Shown here: piece by piece, positions 19,280 through 26,264 of the stretch
How positions within the stretch are numbered: position 1 is the first letter of the stretch
How the letters are laid out: each line of letters starts with the position of its first letter
Source: Parvularculaceae bacterium
GTDB taxonomy: Bacteria > Pseudomonadota > Alphaproteobacteria > Caulobacterales > Parvularculaceae
Assembly (NCBI GenBank): GCA_021776475.1
Contig: JAJFFV010000005.1
Coordinates: 434,001 to 498,000 of the forward strand
Reading direction: 5' to 3'
DNA length: 64,000 bases
Program-made: the position numbers and the translations under genes
The notes under the pieces: model-generated
Seen by the model: the letters and a program-made list of their open reading frames with translations, nothing else
Database searches by the model: none
Told to the model about the DNA's origin: nothing

Positions 19280-20338
19280 ATGAAACGAGGAGGCAGATTT
19301 TACCTTGTTGCGGGCGCGCTTTTGGGCGCAGCATCCTTTACACCAGCTTGGGCTGAAGCAGAAACAAGCGAGTTTCCAGGCACAAATACCCTAGTGCTAC
19401 GGGACTTCATCGCCACCGTCAGTGTTGTGACCGATGATGTCAAAGATATCTCTGTGACGATTGACAATGGCGATGCCGGCAAAGAGCCAGTGCTTGTCCG
19501 CCAAACCGGCAATAGCGTTGAGGTCTACAGCGTAGATGAACCAGACCAGAGGGCATTTTGGAAACAAATGAACTGGCATCGTCACGGTGAAGACACATTC
19601 AAGGTCTTCCTCGAGGATCGTCCTATCGTTCAGATCACCGTCCCACAGGGTACCTCTGTGGAGCTCGATGGTCTCGCGTCGCATTTGTCCGTCGGGAATA
19701 CCGATGGTGCTTTCGATGTAACCAGCACACTTTACGTTGAAGGAAATATCGGCAATGTGAGTTCCGCCAAGGTTCGGATCACAGATGCCGGTGAGCTTAA
19801 CTTTGCTTCCGTTGCAGGTGCCCTCGATGCAACAATCGCCGGCTCTGGTACGCTCTCGTTTAACAAGGTGAAAACAGCCGAGATCGGTATCGCCGGCTCC
19901 GGTGACATACAAATCAATTCGATCGACGGTCCGCTGAGCGCCGACATCAGAGGCTCAGGCGACATTGACGTCGGCGATGTTGTAGGAAAAACCGATTTGC
20001 GGATAGCCGGATCAGGCGACATTGAGGTCGGCAAGATCCGCGGCGGCGCCGATATTTCGATCCGCGGATCAGGCGACATCATCGTCAATGAAATTAACGG
20101 GCCGTCGTCCGTCGCAATTACCGGCAATGGCGACGTTGAAATCAAAAACGGCAAAGCCGAAAATCTTAAAGTCCGTATTACTGGTTCCGGCGATTTCGAT
20201 TTTAACGGGCTCGCGACCAATCCGGATATACGCCTTTCCGGCAATGGGGACGTGTTCATAAAGGATTATGAAGGCAGCCTCTCCACGAAGGGTAGTAGCG
20301 GCGATATTACGATTGGGGACGTCCAAATCGACAATTGA
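19280..20338 (+). CDS. DUF2807 (GIN domain) exported repeat protein
   Basis: A 352-residue protein with a signal peptide (MKRGGRFYLVAGALLGAASFTPAWA). From about residue 195 to the end it consists of short near-repeats built around I-x-GSGDI: GSGDIQINSIDGPLSADIR, GSGDIDVGDVVGKTDLRIA, GSGDIEVGKIRGGADISIR and so on, about 18-20 residues each, which should fold as a right-handed beta-helix. Matches the DUF2807/GIN 'putative auto-transporter adhesin head' family. It is envelope-exposed by inference. The gene is single, divergent from the metalloprotease, and followed by a hairpin at 20415-20446. Confidence 0.85.
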   Translation: MKRGGRFYLVAGALLGAASFTPAWAEAETSEFPGTNTLVLRDFIATVSVVTDDVKDISVTIDNGDAGKEPVLVRQTGNSVEVYSVDEPDQRAFWKQMNWHRHGEDTFKVFLEDRPIVQITVPQGTSVELDGLASHLSVGNTDGAFDVTSTLYVEGNIGNVSSAKVRITDAGELNFASVAGALDATIAGSGTLSFNKVKTAEIGIAGSGDIQINSIDGPLSADIRGSGDIDVGDVVGKTDLRIAGSGDIEVGKIRGGADISIRGSGDIIVNEINGPSSVAITGNGDVEIKNGKAENLKVRITGSGDFDFNGLATNPDIRLSGNGDVFIKDYEGSLSTKGSSGDITIGDVQIDN

Positions 20339-21390: not shown

Positions 21391-22164
21391 ATGCGCCTGG
21401 CTTTGATCTGCTTTTTGTGGACGGTATCCGCCTGTGCACAAGCACCGGACACAATTCGACCTGAGCGGTCGACGAATACTGTCGAGTTTCGACAACTTGC
21501 CGACAATGTCTGGCTGCATACAAGCTATCGCGACCTGCCCGAATGGGGACCGGTTCCCTCCAACGGTCTGGTAGTCGTCACCCCACGCCAGGTCCTATTG
21601 GTGGATACGGCCTGGGACGATGATCAGACAGCGAAAGTTCTCGCCTGGGCACAGACAACGCTTGGTCGCCCCGTTACCCACGCTGTTTTTACGCACGCCC
21701 ATGATGACAAGATGGGCGGCGTTGGCTTGACTATAGAGCGTGGGATTGAAACCTATGCGCATGAACTCTCCAATGGGATCGCGCCGATCAAAGGGCTGGT
21801 CCCGGCAGAAAACAATCTCGAATTCGATAATCGAAATGTCGCCGATCCTGTTGCCGGGATCGAAATCTTCTACCCTGGACCAGGACACACGGCAGATAAC
21901 GTCGTTGTATATATAGTGGAGCATAGCATCTTGTTTGGCGGTTGCTTGATCCGCCCGAAGGGAGCCAAAACCCTCGGAAACACAGCTGATTCTGATATCG
22001 CTAACTGGAGTGATGCTGTAGAAAACGTTGCTTCGCGCTACCCGGACGCATCGCTCGTGATCCCCAGCCATGGGCTTCCGGGAGATCACGGGTTGCTCTC
22101 AGCAACGATTGAGCTTGCCCGCGAGCGACAATCCCGCGGTACGGGCGACCGGCAGGACGATTAG
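21391..22164 (+). CDS. Subclass B1 metallo-beta-lactamase, predicted lipoprotein
   Basis: A 257-residue enzyme with all B1 zinc ligands: THAHDDKMGG gives His102, His104 and Asp106, GHTADN gives His166, FGGCLI gives Cys185 and IPSHG gives His227. The Lys of RPKGAKTLGNTADSD (substrate-carboxylate binding) and WGPVPSNGLVVV (flexible loop region) are also visible. The signal MRLALICFLWTVSAC has a lipobox-like VSAC, so it may be lipid-anchored as NDM enzymes are. B1 enzymes hydrolyse penicillins, cephalosporins and carbapenems in the periplasm; activity here is predicted, not shown. A BlaI repressor and an M56 protease lie 0.7 kb downstream, separated by a decayed gene. CGGAGA lies 5 bases before the ATG. 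Confidence 0.9.
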   Translation: MRLALICFLWTVSACAQAPDTIRPERSTNTVEFRQLADNVWLHTSYRDLPEWGPVPSNGLVVVTPRQVLLVDTAWDDDQTAKVLAWAQTTLGRPVTHAVFTHAHDDKMGGVGLTIERGIETYAHELSNGIAPIKGLVPAENNLEFDNRNVADPVAGIEIFYPGPGHTADNVVVYIVEHSILFGGCLIRPKGAKTLGNTADSDIANWSDAVENVASRYPDASLVIPSHGLPGDHGLLSATIELARERQSRGTGDRQDD

Positions 22165-22775: not shown

Positions 22776-22783
22776 TAAATATT

Positions 22784-22797
22784 ACTAATTTTATAGT
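22784..22797. promoter_or_regulatory. Weak candidate BlaI operator
   Basis: ACTA-ATTTTA-TAGT, an inverted repeat in an AT-rich tract 52 bases before the blaI start. BlaI/MecI boxes in other bacteria contain TACA/TGTA half sites, so the match to the known motif is only partial. Confidence 0.25.
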
Positions 22798-22848
22798 TTG
22801 AAGCCCAACCCCGAAGCAGTACGCTTCTAAAAGAATGAGCAGGTAGCC

Positions 22849-23257: not shown

Positions 23258-25030
23258 ATGGAAGGGTTACAATGGATCGCAGAGATTGCGTTTCGTCATC
23301 TCTGGCAAGGTGCTTTGATACTTGGTATCGTTAGCACGCTTCTTCTCTATAAAGACAAATGGAGCGCCGAACACCGCTCATGGATCTGGGCGGCAGCTGT
23401 TCTGCTAATCGGAACAATGCCGGTAGTCACTCTGATACCAACCCCAAGCCTGGGCACGATGCCAACGCTTATTTCAGGCAGTAATGTTATTTCTGGTTCG
23501 TCCGGTGCACCGCTCACGGACGTGGTCAACAACGCGTATAATTACCCCGCCACACTTCTGTCGCCGGTGACTGAAACAATCGACCGCTCGTTCATGAGCC
23601 GCGAAATGCTGTTCTATACAATAATCGGCCTATGGGCGATTTTCACGATCCGTGCCCTGACGACACTTTATATGGCGTGGCAACGCACGCGCGATTTGCG
23701 TCTTAATGCTGAACCACTCAAAGAAAAACATGCGTTCTTACCAGGCGACTGGCCGGCATCTGTGACGGTCGCGGTCAGCGACAAAATCGAAGGACCAATG
23801 GCCGTAGGACTACTGACGCCTTATGTGATGTTGCCGGGCAAGCTCATTCATACGCTTTCCACCGAACAATTGCGGCATGTGCTCGCGCATGAACTGGCGC
23901 ACATAAAACGCGGTGATCTTTTGTGCGCGTTCGCCCAACGGATATTGCTTGCGGTCTATTGGTGGAGCCCGTTCATGCATATGGCCTGTAACAATCTGCG
24001 CACTGAGCGCGAGATGGCCTGCGATGATCGTGCCGTTCGCATGGCCGGCTGTTCAAAGAACTACGCAACCTCACTGTTAGACAGTGCAGAATCACTGATC
24101 GTCGGACATCGGACAGCCACCAACCTGATGGCTGTTGGTGCGTTTGAACGCGGTAAGGACAACTTCTTCTCACGGCGCATCAAACGACTTATCAATGCCG
24201 ACTATCGTGACGACCTCAAGCTTGGCCGGCCGCATCTTGCCGGCCTCACAAGTGCTACCGCCATCATCGCATTACTGTTCGTCCTGTCACCACGGACCAC
24301 ATTTTCCGCGGTCTGGCCGGGCGAAGAAGAGGGTGTTTGCTGCGATGAGTTCATCGAAGCCATTCTTAATCAAGACCACAAACGTAAAGTTGAACTTGTC
24401 GAAGAAGGCGCTGACCTCAACTGCATTGGCGAGGAAGGATTATCCCCTCTTGTTGCCGCGACGCATACCGGGGATATCTCAATGGTCGCATGGCTGATTG
24501 AAAGAGGCGCGGATGTTAATCTTGTAACGCCGTCTGACGGGACGCCGTTGATGGAAGCTGTAGCGCACGGCCGTACGATGATCGCCAATAAACTAATCAC
24601 AGCCGGCGCGGATATCAATGTGGTTGCAGATGGTGATGGCACCGCGTTGATCAACGCTGCCCATAAGGGCGATGCTGATATGGTGCATTGGCTGCTTGAG
24701 AAAGGGGCCAATGTAAATCTAGTCACCGCCGGGAATGGTACCGCGCTTGTTGAGGCTGCTGCCCACGGACATACTACTGTGGTCAAGAAACTACTCGCCG
24801 CTGGCGCTGATCCTAACCTGTTTGTTGAAGGCGGAGAAACCGCATTGATCGCAGCAGCGCGCGAGGGCCACTACACTATCGTCAAATATCTGGTCAAATA
24901 TGAAGCCGACATCAGCTTCTCCGCCTGGCAAGGCAGCGAAGAAATCTCAGCAATCTCTGAGGCCAAACACCACGGCCACAACAAAATCGCGTCGTATCTA
25001 AAAGCACAAGCAGAAGATCGGCGGGGCTAG
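23258..25030 (+). CDS. M56 (BlaR1-like) membrane metalloprotease fused to C-terminal ankyrin repeats
   Basis: A 590-residue protein. Residues 1-145 contain three hydrophobic segments (12-31, 42-61 and 118-140). The cytosolic gluzincin domain carries HELAHIKRGD (211-220, zinc His211/His215, catalytic Glu212) and NLRTEREMACDDRAV (downstream acidic zinc ligand). A fourth helix (330-345) precedes a Cys pair (361-362) and about six ankyrin repeats (395-580), for example GTALINAAHKGDADMVHWLL and GTALVEAAAHGHTTVVKKLL. In BlaR1 the segment after this helix is the extracytoplasmic penicillin-binding sensor, so the ankyrin array should face the periplasm. No transpeptidase-like SxxK sensor is present. 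It follows blaI by 31 bases and overlaps kdsB by 4 bases at the convergent ends. Confidence 0.9.
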   Translation: MEGLQWIAEIAFRHLWQGALILGIVSTLLLYKDKWSAEHRSWIWAAAVLLIGTMPVVTLIPTPSLGTMPTLISGSNVISGSSGAPLTDVVNNAYNYPATLLSPVTETIDRSFMSREMLFYTIIGLWAIFTIRALTTLYMAWQRTRDLRLNAEPLKEKHAFLPGDWPASVTVAVSDKIEGPMAVGLLTPYVMLPGKLIHTLSTEQLRHVLAHELAHIKRGDLLCAFAQRILLAVYWWSPFMHMACNNLRTEREMACDDRAVRMAGCSKNYATSLLDSAESLIVGHRTATNLMAVGAFERGKDNFFSRRIKRLINADYRDDLKLGRPHLAGLTSATAIIALLFVLSPRTTFSAVWPGEEEGVCCDEFIEAILNQDHKRKVELVEEGADLNCIGEEGLSPLVAATHTGDISMVAWLIERGADVNLVTPSDGTPLMEAVAHGRTMIANKLITAGADINVVADGDGTALINAAHKGDADMVHWLLEKGANVNLVTAGNGTALVEAAAHGHTTVVKKLLAAGADPNLFVEGGETALIAAAREGHYTIVKYLVKYEADISFSAWQGSEEISAISEAKHHGHNKIASYLKAQAEDRRG

Positions 25031-25812
25031 GCGTTGGCCGTTGTGCAGTACCGTTTGACGAACGCCGTATAGTCTTCCGGCGTATCGATACCGGGCGGCG
25101 CGTTCTCCACAACGGACGCTGCAATAGATTGGCCCGCTTCCAGGATACGAAGTTGCTCCAGCTTTTCGACGTCTTCCAGACTACCTATCGGCAGCTGCGT
25201 GAATTGTTGCAGGCTTTCCCGACTGAAGGCATAAATACCGATATGCAAGAAGTGCCCGGTTGGATCAATCACCATACCGGCCGCCTCCCTTGGGTAGGGC
25301 ACAACTGCGCGTGAGAAATAAAGCGCCCTGCGGATGCCTGCCGGATCGCGTGACAGCACCACTTTGACGCAAGCGGAATCCTCGGGCGACCCTGATCCCG
25401 ATATAGGCGTCGCAGCAAACGGACATACCAGAGTGGAGGCAAAGGCCGGGACTGAAGCATTCATCGCGTTTGCGTGCAGATCAATCAGCTGATTGAGGTG
25501 ATCTGGATTTGTCTCCGGCTCATCGCCCTGCATATTAATAATAATTTCGGCGGAAAGATCGCGCGCTGCTTCAGCAACACGGGCCGTCCCACTTTCATGG
25601 GATGCAGACGTCATCACCGCATCCCCGCCAAAACCTGCCACCGCCTCGGCGATACGCGCATCATCGGTTGCGACTATCACCCTTTCAGCAACTGACTTTT
25701 TCGCTCTTTCATACGTGTGCTGAATAAGCGGTTTGCCGGTTTCATTGAGCAGGGGTTTGCCGGGCAGGCGGCTGGATGCATAACGGGCCGGAATAATAAT
25801 TACCGCGTTCAT
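25027..25812 (-). CDS. kdsB: 3-deoxy-manno-octulosonate cytidylyltransferase
   Basis: A 261-residue CMP-Kdo synthetase that activates Kdo with CTP for lipid A/LPS inner core assembly. Visible signatures are IIIPARYASSRLPGKPLL (nucleotide binding), ERVIVATDDARIAEA, AVMTSASHESGTARVAEA, IINMQGDEPE and HIGIYAFSRESLQQF. The start was set at 25812 because IIIPARYASSRLPGKPL begins the family. ATGA overlap with the upstream vanZ-like gene shows an operon galE-vanZ-kdsB. Confidence 0.96.
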   Translation of the reverse strand: MNAVIIIPARYASSRLPGKPLLNETGKPLIQHTYERAKKSVAERVIVATDDARIAEAVAGFGGDAVMTSASHESGTARVAEAARDLSAEIIINMQGDEPETNPDHLNQLIDLHANAMNASVPAFASTLVCPFAATPISGSGSPEDSACVKVVLSRDPAGIRRALYFSRAVVPYPREAAGMVIDPTGHFLHIGIYAFSRESLQQFTQLPIGSLEDVEKLEQLRILEAGQSIAASVVENAPPGIDTPEDYTAFVKRYCTTANA

Positions 25813-26264
25813 GCCGGCAGGTTCCTCGAAGTGTGCTGGGCCTGGGCGGCGAGAATCAGGCAACCAGCGATCACGCCGCCGGCAGCAACCCCTGTACCAT
25901 TGGCAACAAAATCAAGCCAGTCAGGCATGCGCGAGGAGACGAGACCTTGTGCCAGTTCCAGCAAGCCACTTAACAACAGCATCGCCAGCGGTAGCAACAG
26001 CGATCTGCCCAGCGGCCTGATGAAGGCTAAAAGCCCGACGCCCGTTAAGGTCCCATAGGCAAGGAAGTGCGATACCTTGTCGGAATACTCCGCATCACCT
26101 AGAAATATTTCTGCGAGCCAGCGGAACACATCTGTCGTGCCCGGCAGGTCTTCCTGTGTCGGGATCAAGCTCAGGACAATCACCACGAGCAAAAGAATTC
26201 CGTAAAGCCAGCGCATGATTTTGATAAACACCGGGGTGAGCAGCAGCGAAAGTAGTGATTTCAT
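25809..26264 (-). CDS. VanZ family membrane protein
   Basis: A 151-residue protein with four hydrophobic segments and the VanZ motifs KVSHFLAYGTLTGVG and LSGLLELAQGLVSSRMPDWLDFVANGTGVAAGG. VanZ domains are linked to glycopeptide resistance in Gram-positives but in proteobacteria they accompany surface polysaccharide genes, as here. It overlaps both neighbours by ATGA, so all three should be cotranscribed. Specific role unknown. Confidence 0.85.
   Translation of the reverse strand: MKSLLSLLLTPVFIKIMRWLYGILLLVVIVLSLIPTQEDLPGTTDVFRWLAEIFLGDAEYSDKVSHFLAYGTLTGVGLLAFIRPLGRSLLLPLAMLLLSGLLELAQGLVSSRMPDWLDFVANGTGVAAGGVIAGCLILAAQAQHTSRNLPA

Follow-up and report, generated by a model that had tools for sequence, protein, structure and literature searches.

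What does a BlaR1-like membrane protease sense when ankyrin repeats stand where the penicillin sensor should be? BlaR1 itself is familiar from antibiotic resistance, where it acts as a sensor, and the question is raised by a gene found in the genome of a marine bacterium, an Aquisalinus (Parvularculaceae), within a window of 64,000 nucleotides (the whole stretch of DNA that was analysed). The gene encodes an M56 metalloprotease followed by an ankyrin array and lies next to a repressor gene of the BlaI type (Table 1).

Table 1. Features of the M56-ankyrin locus, in coordinates of the window
Feature	Position	Strand	Basis
Subclass B1 metallo-beta-lactamase gene, without operator upstream	21391..22164	+	NF033088, 248.1 bits (cut-off 200)
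Putative BlaI operator, TTACTAATTTTATAGTTT	22782..22799	+	Inverted repeat, conserved upstream of blaI in 6/6 Aquisalinus genomes
blaI-type repressor gene, 125 aa	22849..23226	+	PF03965; matches to MecI and BlaI structures
M56 metalloprotease with C-terminal ankyrin repeats, 590 aa	23258..25030	+	ORF list, Pfam, phmmer, AlphaFold
Peptidase_M56 (PF05569) match, residues 30-282; HELAH 211-215, E252xxxD256	23345..24103	+	Pfam
Predicted fourth transmembrane helix, about residues 324-343	24227..24286	+	AlphaFold secondary structure; hydropathy peak 327-345
Ankyrin repeat array, about residues 360-590; Cys-Cys 361-362, Cys 389	24335..25027	+	Pfam, AlphaFold model, structure alignment
kdsB-like gene, convergent, ends the operon	25027..25863	-	ORF list; syntenic in relatives; name by eye

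The protease core and its kinship with BlaR1

An earlier note on this DNA had described a membrane protease of the M56 type that keeps the HELAH motif and the fourth helix of BlaR1, and both points hold. The Peptidase_M56 match (E 1.8e-29, 103.3 bits against a curated cut-off of 31) and the presence of the gluzincin motifs make the protein a member of peptidase family M56; the catalytic residues H211, E212, H215, E252 and D256 are unchanged in all 30 aligned M56 rows, and the fourth helix appears both in the AlphaFold model and as a hydropathy peak. As described in PMC9834060, BlaR1 carries the motifs H201EXXH and E242XXXD and an Arg294-Asp246 bridge, cleaves itself in cis between Ser283 and Phe284, and has an N-out, C-out topology. 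The counterparts of its motif residues here are H211, H215, E252, D256 and R307, the last of which aligns with BlaR1 R294 and is likewise unchanged in 30 of 30 rows; the autocleavage site aligns with Ala295-Phe296.

At the level of sequence the match to BlaR1 is weak (residues 128-324 against S. aureus BlaR1, 8exs: E 5.6e-7 with phmmer). Because re-ranking with the full AlphaFold model was filled by ankyrins, a second model was made of residues 1-358 alone, that is, of the M56 part. Six BlaR1 chains are the only Foldseek matches to this model at E < 0.001, the best having an E of 2.3e-7, a TM score of 0.49 on the query and an rmsd of 17.5 Å, which means that the superposition on BlaR1 is loose. 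The NCBIfam models for BlaR1 score far below their cut-offs (NF000326, 81 bits against 400; NF033108, 22 bits against 1200), and Pfam finds no penicillin-binding domain in the 590-residue protein, nor any transpeptidase or beta-lactamase family at E <= 0.01. With no penicillin sensor and such low scores on the curated models, the protein, judged by its sequence, falls outside the BlaR1 sensor family; it probably works like BlaR1.

The ankyrin array and its predicted topology

The C-terminal part holds about six or seven ankyrin repeats. The families PF12796 and PF00023 match at about residues 392-560 (Ank_2: E 1.1e-43, 148.2 bits against a cut-off of 27.3), and the full AlphaFold model, with a mean pLDDT of 83, shows the repeat array after the fourth helix. 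Residues 358-590 of this model superimpose on DARPin and ankyrin chains with a best Z of 29.0 and an rmsd of 2.7 over 223 aligned residues. With several repeats over the cut-off and the ankyrin fold in the model, the protein belongs among the ankyrin repeat proteins. The earlier note had about six ankyrins, at residues 395-580, replacing the penicillin sensor: Pfam and the model bear out the ankyrins and move their start from 395 to nearer 360. It had also allowed for transpeptidase motifs that it might have overlooked; two SxxK strings are found in the C-terminal part, at residues 567 and 579, neither in a transpeptidase context. The Cys-Cys pair at 361-362 and Cys 389 are conserved in four Aquisalinus ankyrin versions.

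On which side of the membrane the array lies can be judged from several predictions. AlphaFold places helices at residues 2-34, 37-57, 115-150 and 324-343. Hydropathy profiles show four hydrophobic segments in three close orthologues (G012, G013 and G014) and three above threshold in the window protein, the first helix of which falls below it. Lysine and arginine number 2 in loop 2 (residues 61-116) and 26 in loop 3 (136-326), and the part after the last helix is acidic (19 K+R against 36 D+E). Hydropathy, charge pattern and modelled helices agree with four membrane helices in an N-out, C-out arrangement. The ankyrin repeats probably face the periplasm, as the prediction of an ankyrin part outside the cytosol had it.

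The same genome encodes a stand-alone ankyrin protein of 273 residues (L142, 765-1586, plus strand), whose repeats are of the type seen in the M56-ankyrin proteins. It has an apparent export signal, recognized by eye, and a DUF2975 gene lies nearby.

The BlaI repressor and its putative operator

The partner blaI gene, reported earlier as lying directly upstream, is indeed there, 31 bp from the M56-ankyrin gene. Its product is a member of the BlaI/MecI family (PF03965: E 3e-34, 118.3 bits against a cut-off of 22.6), matches the MecI structure 1okr with an E of 2.8e-12, and has a Leu at what we take to be the position of the scissile Phe of MecI.

The putative operator was scanned for with up to two mismatches. 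The window genome (G000), G010 and G011 contain a single match each, always before blaI; weaker extra matches number three in G012, three in G013 and two in G014, about as many as the reversed control gives, and the one examined (L054) falls inside a reading frame. The operator stands at blaI in 15 of 15 further genomes, with a second site beside it in eight and five stray matches in total. In many relatives two operator sites flank the likely promoter, and the first runs into a TTGA(C) sequence that, by eye, could be a -35 element. Sites of the classical BlaI/MecI type, TACA-N0-4-TGTA, are found neither across the whole window nor near blaI in 13 loci. Since the operator is present at blaI and almost nowhere else, BlaI has no apparent target beyond the operon that encodes it: on the evidence of this putative site, the BlaI-M56 pair regulates its own operon.

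The adjacent metallo-beta-lactamase gene

The earlier account of the upstream region, right about blaI, had overlooked a subclass B1 metallo-beta-lactamase gene, which looks complete and ends 684 bp upstream of blaI. In the PDB its product is nearest to FIM-1 and also close to NDM. The best operator match in its upstream region has 7 mismatches, which is also the value that random stretches, 400 of which were scored, give most often. Of the family's 62 genomes, 15 have a B1-like match at 1e-20, and only the window genome has it beside the sensor; at the same threshold the enzyme is absent from all five other Aquisalinus genomes (G010-G014), in three of which the sensor protein is 63% identical across the M56 part. 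The neighbourhood made of EF-P, BlaI, M56 and kdsB/VanZ/galE is largely kept in these five genomes (names given by eye except for the scanned genes; the contig of L036 is short and lacks the EF-P end). The slot before blaI is occupied by a divergent hybrid histidine kinase gene in G012-G014, domain-scanned in G013 and recognized in G012 and G014 by its place and length, and by nothing in G010 and G011. No remnant of the kinase is found between the B1 gene and blaI (the only match has an E of 2.3 over 10 residues). Because the operator is lacking and the neighbourhood is not conserved, regulation of the B1 enzyme by BlaI was set aside as improbable.

Upstream of EF-P, the window encodes a DUF2807/DUF4097 protein (19280-20338, plus strand), found at the same position in several relatives.

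Distribution and exchange of the C-terminal part

A search for the M56-ankyrin architecture in other genomes, as the earlier note had proposed, shows that it recurs in several families and phyla. A search with a BlaI alignment gave 440 candidate loci, from which the nearest 80 were taken, Aquisalinus, Marinicaulis and Maricaulis among them; M56 frames were found beside BlaI at 73, the other 7 having no frame by the pattern used. An ankyrin tail is present in 24 of the 73 M56 genes, a proportion that is not a population frequency because the 80 loci are the nearest of 440. The hosts are Aquisalinus, Maricaulis, Marinicaulis, other Alphaproteobacteria, one acidobacterium and, in the Xanthomonadales/Lysobacterales, Lysobacter, Pseudoxanthomonas, Luteimonas, Tahibacter, Oleiagrimonas and another Lysobacterales MAG. 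The ankyrin profile was small and rested on three repeats that had been selected with a narrow pattern, so that weak ankyrins may be missed; Pfam finds none in the proteins of A. flavus and A. luteolus (L039, L040), nor in L068, L069, L081, L083 and L088.

The M56-ankyrin profile has matches at 1e-40 in 47 of the 249 genomes sampled across the order; as read by eye from the ranges, 32 of the 47 span both parts. A class-wide sample gave one genome out of 289 at E <= 1e-40, which is a weak negative because up to four candidates were scored per genome. A protein search of genome contigs brought no relative; the BlaI alignment search did. Among plasmids, 260 of 72,556 records match, none across 80% of the query, and the 15 matches listed each cover only one part of it. 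A second M56 subfamily with ankyrins (L176-L184) occurs in other families of the order, and BlaI was found upstream in eight of its nine loci. No description of M56 proteins with ankyrins was found in the open-access literature, to which the search was confined.

A tree of 76 M56 cores places 26 of the 27 ankyrin rows in a single clade of 33 rows (support 95/87), in which seven rows have no ankyrins; the ankyrin label changes 7 times on this tree, against 22.5 times in shuffles. As the tree reads, the C-terminal part is lost or swapped several times inside the clade. A. flavus (L039, 6818-8509, plus strand) and A. luteolus (L040, 6972-8669, minus strand) carry the syntenic M56 gene with a His/Asp-rich tail, which indicates that the tail was replaced at one locus within Aquisalinus. 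Charged, coiled-coil-like tails are found in two Ponticaulis and in one Kordiimonadaceae MAG, L083 and L088 have short tails, and one member of the clade, 359 residues long, has almost none. A clade with one operator, one apparent target and natural sensor swaps offers a clean system for the study of M56 switching and sensing.

The window genome itself has four BlaI and four M56 genes over the cut-off, in matching places, and the four M56 tails differ: ankyrin, M23 (L003), repeat-like and without an assigned family (L001), and charged (L004). Among the BlaI-M56 proteins that were scanned in their C-terminal part, none showed a penicillin sensor, so that it is probably a mistake to take a BlaI/BlaR1 annotation of these proteins as a sign of beta-lactam sensing. 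In the M23 case (L003, 895-2283, minus strand), the M56 protease is fused to an M23 peptidase domain and lies beside another BlaI of the genome.

Hydrolases as operon partners

At 9 of 23 ankyrin loci, the M56 gene is followed on its strand by a gene for a PF00144-type serine hydrolase, and at 5 of 23 by one for an S41-type peptidase. Such a partner thus comes after 14 of the 23 ankyrin loci and after 1 of the 43 non-ankyrin loci, with a Fisher p of 1.3e-7 that is overstated because the loci are related. Seven loci short of downstream sequence (1 ankyrin, 6 non-ankyrin) were excluded from the count; the partner profiles came from reference genes of ankyrin loci, and Pfam was run on a subset of the partners. 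Among ankyrin loci that had no part in building the profiles, five of seven have a PF00144-type gene. As a check on the non-ankyrin side, 20 of the 30 downstream genes in the same orientation were scanned with Pfam, which found one PF00144, no S41 and five HtrA-like genes, the sole PF00144 being that of L083, itself inside the ankyrin clade.

The partner proteins look exported. The five PF00144 partners scanned with NCBIfam reach 63-74 bits, where the cut-off for class C is 415; by that measure they are not class C beta-lactamases. The PF00144 or S41 partner is absent at the nine M56-ankyrin loci of the second subfamily, in Maricaulis maris (L070) and in Aquisalinus, where the operon ends after the sensor. 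An HtrA-like gene lies downstream of the M56-ankyrin gene in G052. Several acidobacterial BlaI-M56 pairs (L093, L097, L127, L131 and L140) are followed on the same strand by a gene for an HtrA-like protein with trypsin and PDZ domains. As HtrA genes come after non-ankyrin pairs too, a hydrolase after BlaI-M56 appears to be a wider theme.

A proposed BlaR1-type relay with an exchanged input

The locus shares with the BlaR1/MecR1 and BlaI/MecI systems of S. aureus and B. licheniformis the M56 gluzincin core with its HEXXH and ExxxD motifs, an adjoining BlaI-family repressor, a predicted sensor after the fourth membrane helix and a self-regulated operon. It differs from them in having ankyrin repeats in place of the penicillin-binding domain, another operator sequence, weak sequence similarity and no beta-lactamase in the operon of the window genome. 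With the acidobacterial BlaI-M56-HtrA operons it has the BlaI-M56 chassis in common, whereas the C-terminal tail and the partner enzyme differ. Read from core, repressor, putative operator and position of the tail, this would be a BlaR1-type relay in which the input has been exchanged.

The domain make-up, the catalytic residues, the conservation and near-uniqueness of the operator, the operon partners and the clade are computed results. The reading that best accommodates them, and one that we consider reasonably probable, is a two-gene relay of the BlaI-BlaR1 type with a periplasmic ankyrin input that senses a protein or peptide. BlaI would bind the inverted-repeat operator, which would cover the promoter of the operon to which blaI itself belongs. 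The M56 protein would span the inner membrane, its zinc site facing the cytosol and the ankyrin array reaching into the periplasm. When a protein or peptide of the periplasm binds to the ankyrin surface or leaves it, the fourth transmembrane helix would change; the M56 protease would then cut BlaI, and repression of the operon would be lifted. Most relatives that have this sensor would produce from the operon the sensor and an exported hydrolase (PF00144 or S41); in the operon of Aquisalinus only the sensor pair is left. The topology, the cleavage of BlaI, the class of ligand and the direction of the signal are what we infer in this scheme. Since ankyrins are, in general, protein-binding repeats, a protein or peptide is the likeliest ligand, and the hydrolase partners suggest a response that concerns the envelope or the processing of peptides. 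Several points weigh against the relay: the window operon has no hydrolase gene, the similarity to BlaR1 is weak in sequence and loose in structure, the nine loci of the second subfamily have no PF00144 or S41 partner, the partner statistics draw on related loci and on profiles from ankyrin loci, and BlaI has Leu in the presumed place of the scissile Phe.

Regulated proteolysis of the DegS/RseP type carries a periplasmic signal through a membrane protease to transcription. The proposed relay, if true, would resemble it in passing a periplasmic peptide or protein signal through a membrane protease; the protease families are unrelated, and the presumed substrate here is the repressor itself. Both DegS and RseP are listed in PMC7593790.

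The system might still answer to beta-lactams, the ankyrin receptor reporting damage, directly or via a periplasmic partner, and controlling the adjacent B1 gene. The proximity of a complete-looking B1 gene and the frequent sharing of an operon, in relatives, with a protein of PF00144, the family to which class C beta-lactamases and AmpH also belong, speak for this; the random-like operator score before the B1 gene, the absence of the enzyme from the other Aquisalinus genomes, its position beside the sensor in only one of the 15 B1-bearing genomes and the low class C scores of the PF00144 partners speak against it, and we consider it improbable. Somewhat less improbable, but still unlikely, is that the ankyrin part serves as a scaffold or anchor, for example by docking the operon hydrolase or a cell-wall complex, the membrane part sensing the trigger. 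This would suit the protein-binding character of ankyrins, a tail that in the clade can be exchanged or missing, and the exported look of the partner proteins. Against it, the equivalent position, after the fourth helix, is occupied by the sensor in BlaR1 and MecR1, according to PMC9834060 and PMC7593790. The conservation of the repeat type across families also suggests a specific role.

A further alternative has the ankyrin part in the cytosol, through a different number of membrane helices for instance, where it would act as an adaptor of the protease that binds BlaI or another cytosolic protein. Ankyrins are known mostly from the cytosol, and the first helix of the window protein is below the hydropathy threshold; yet the charge bias, the four hydrophobic segments of the close orthologues, the four modelled helices and an apparently exported protein with the same repeats in the window genome make this alternative very improbable.

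Seen beyond this locus, the recurrence of the M56-ankyrin design in many bacteria suggests that the BlaI-M56 pair serves as a general chassis for signalling across the membrane, into which different periplasmic inputs can be fitted; the penicillin sensor would be a special case among these, and the ankyrin branch a protein or peptide receptor of the envelope. We put this wider reading forward tentatively, as somewhat short of an even chance. The ligand of the ankyrins would then possibly be the PF00144 or S41 hydrolase of the operon, or its product, which would close a sensing loop.
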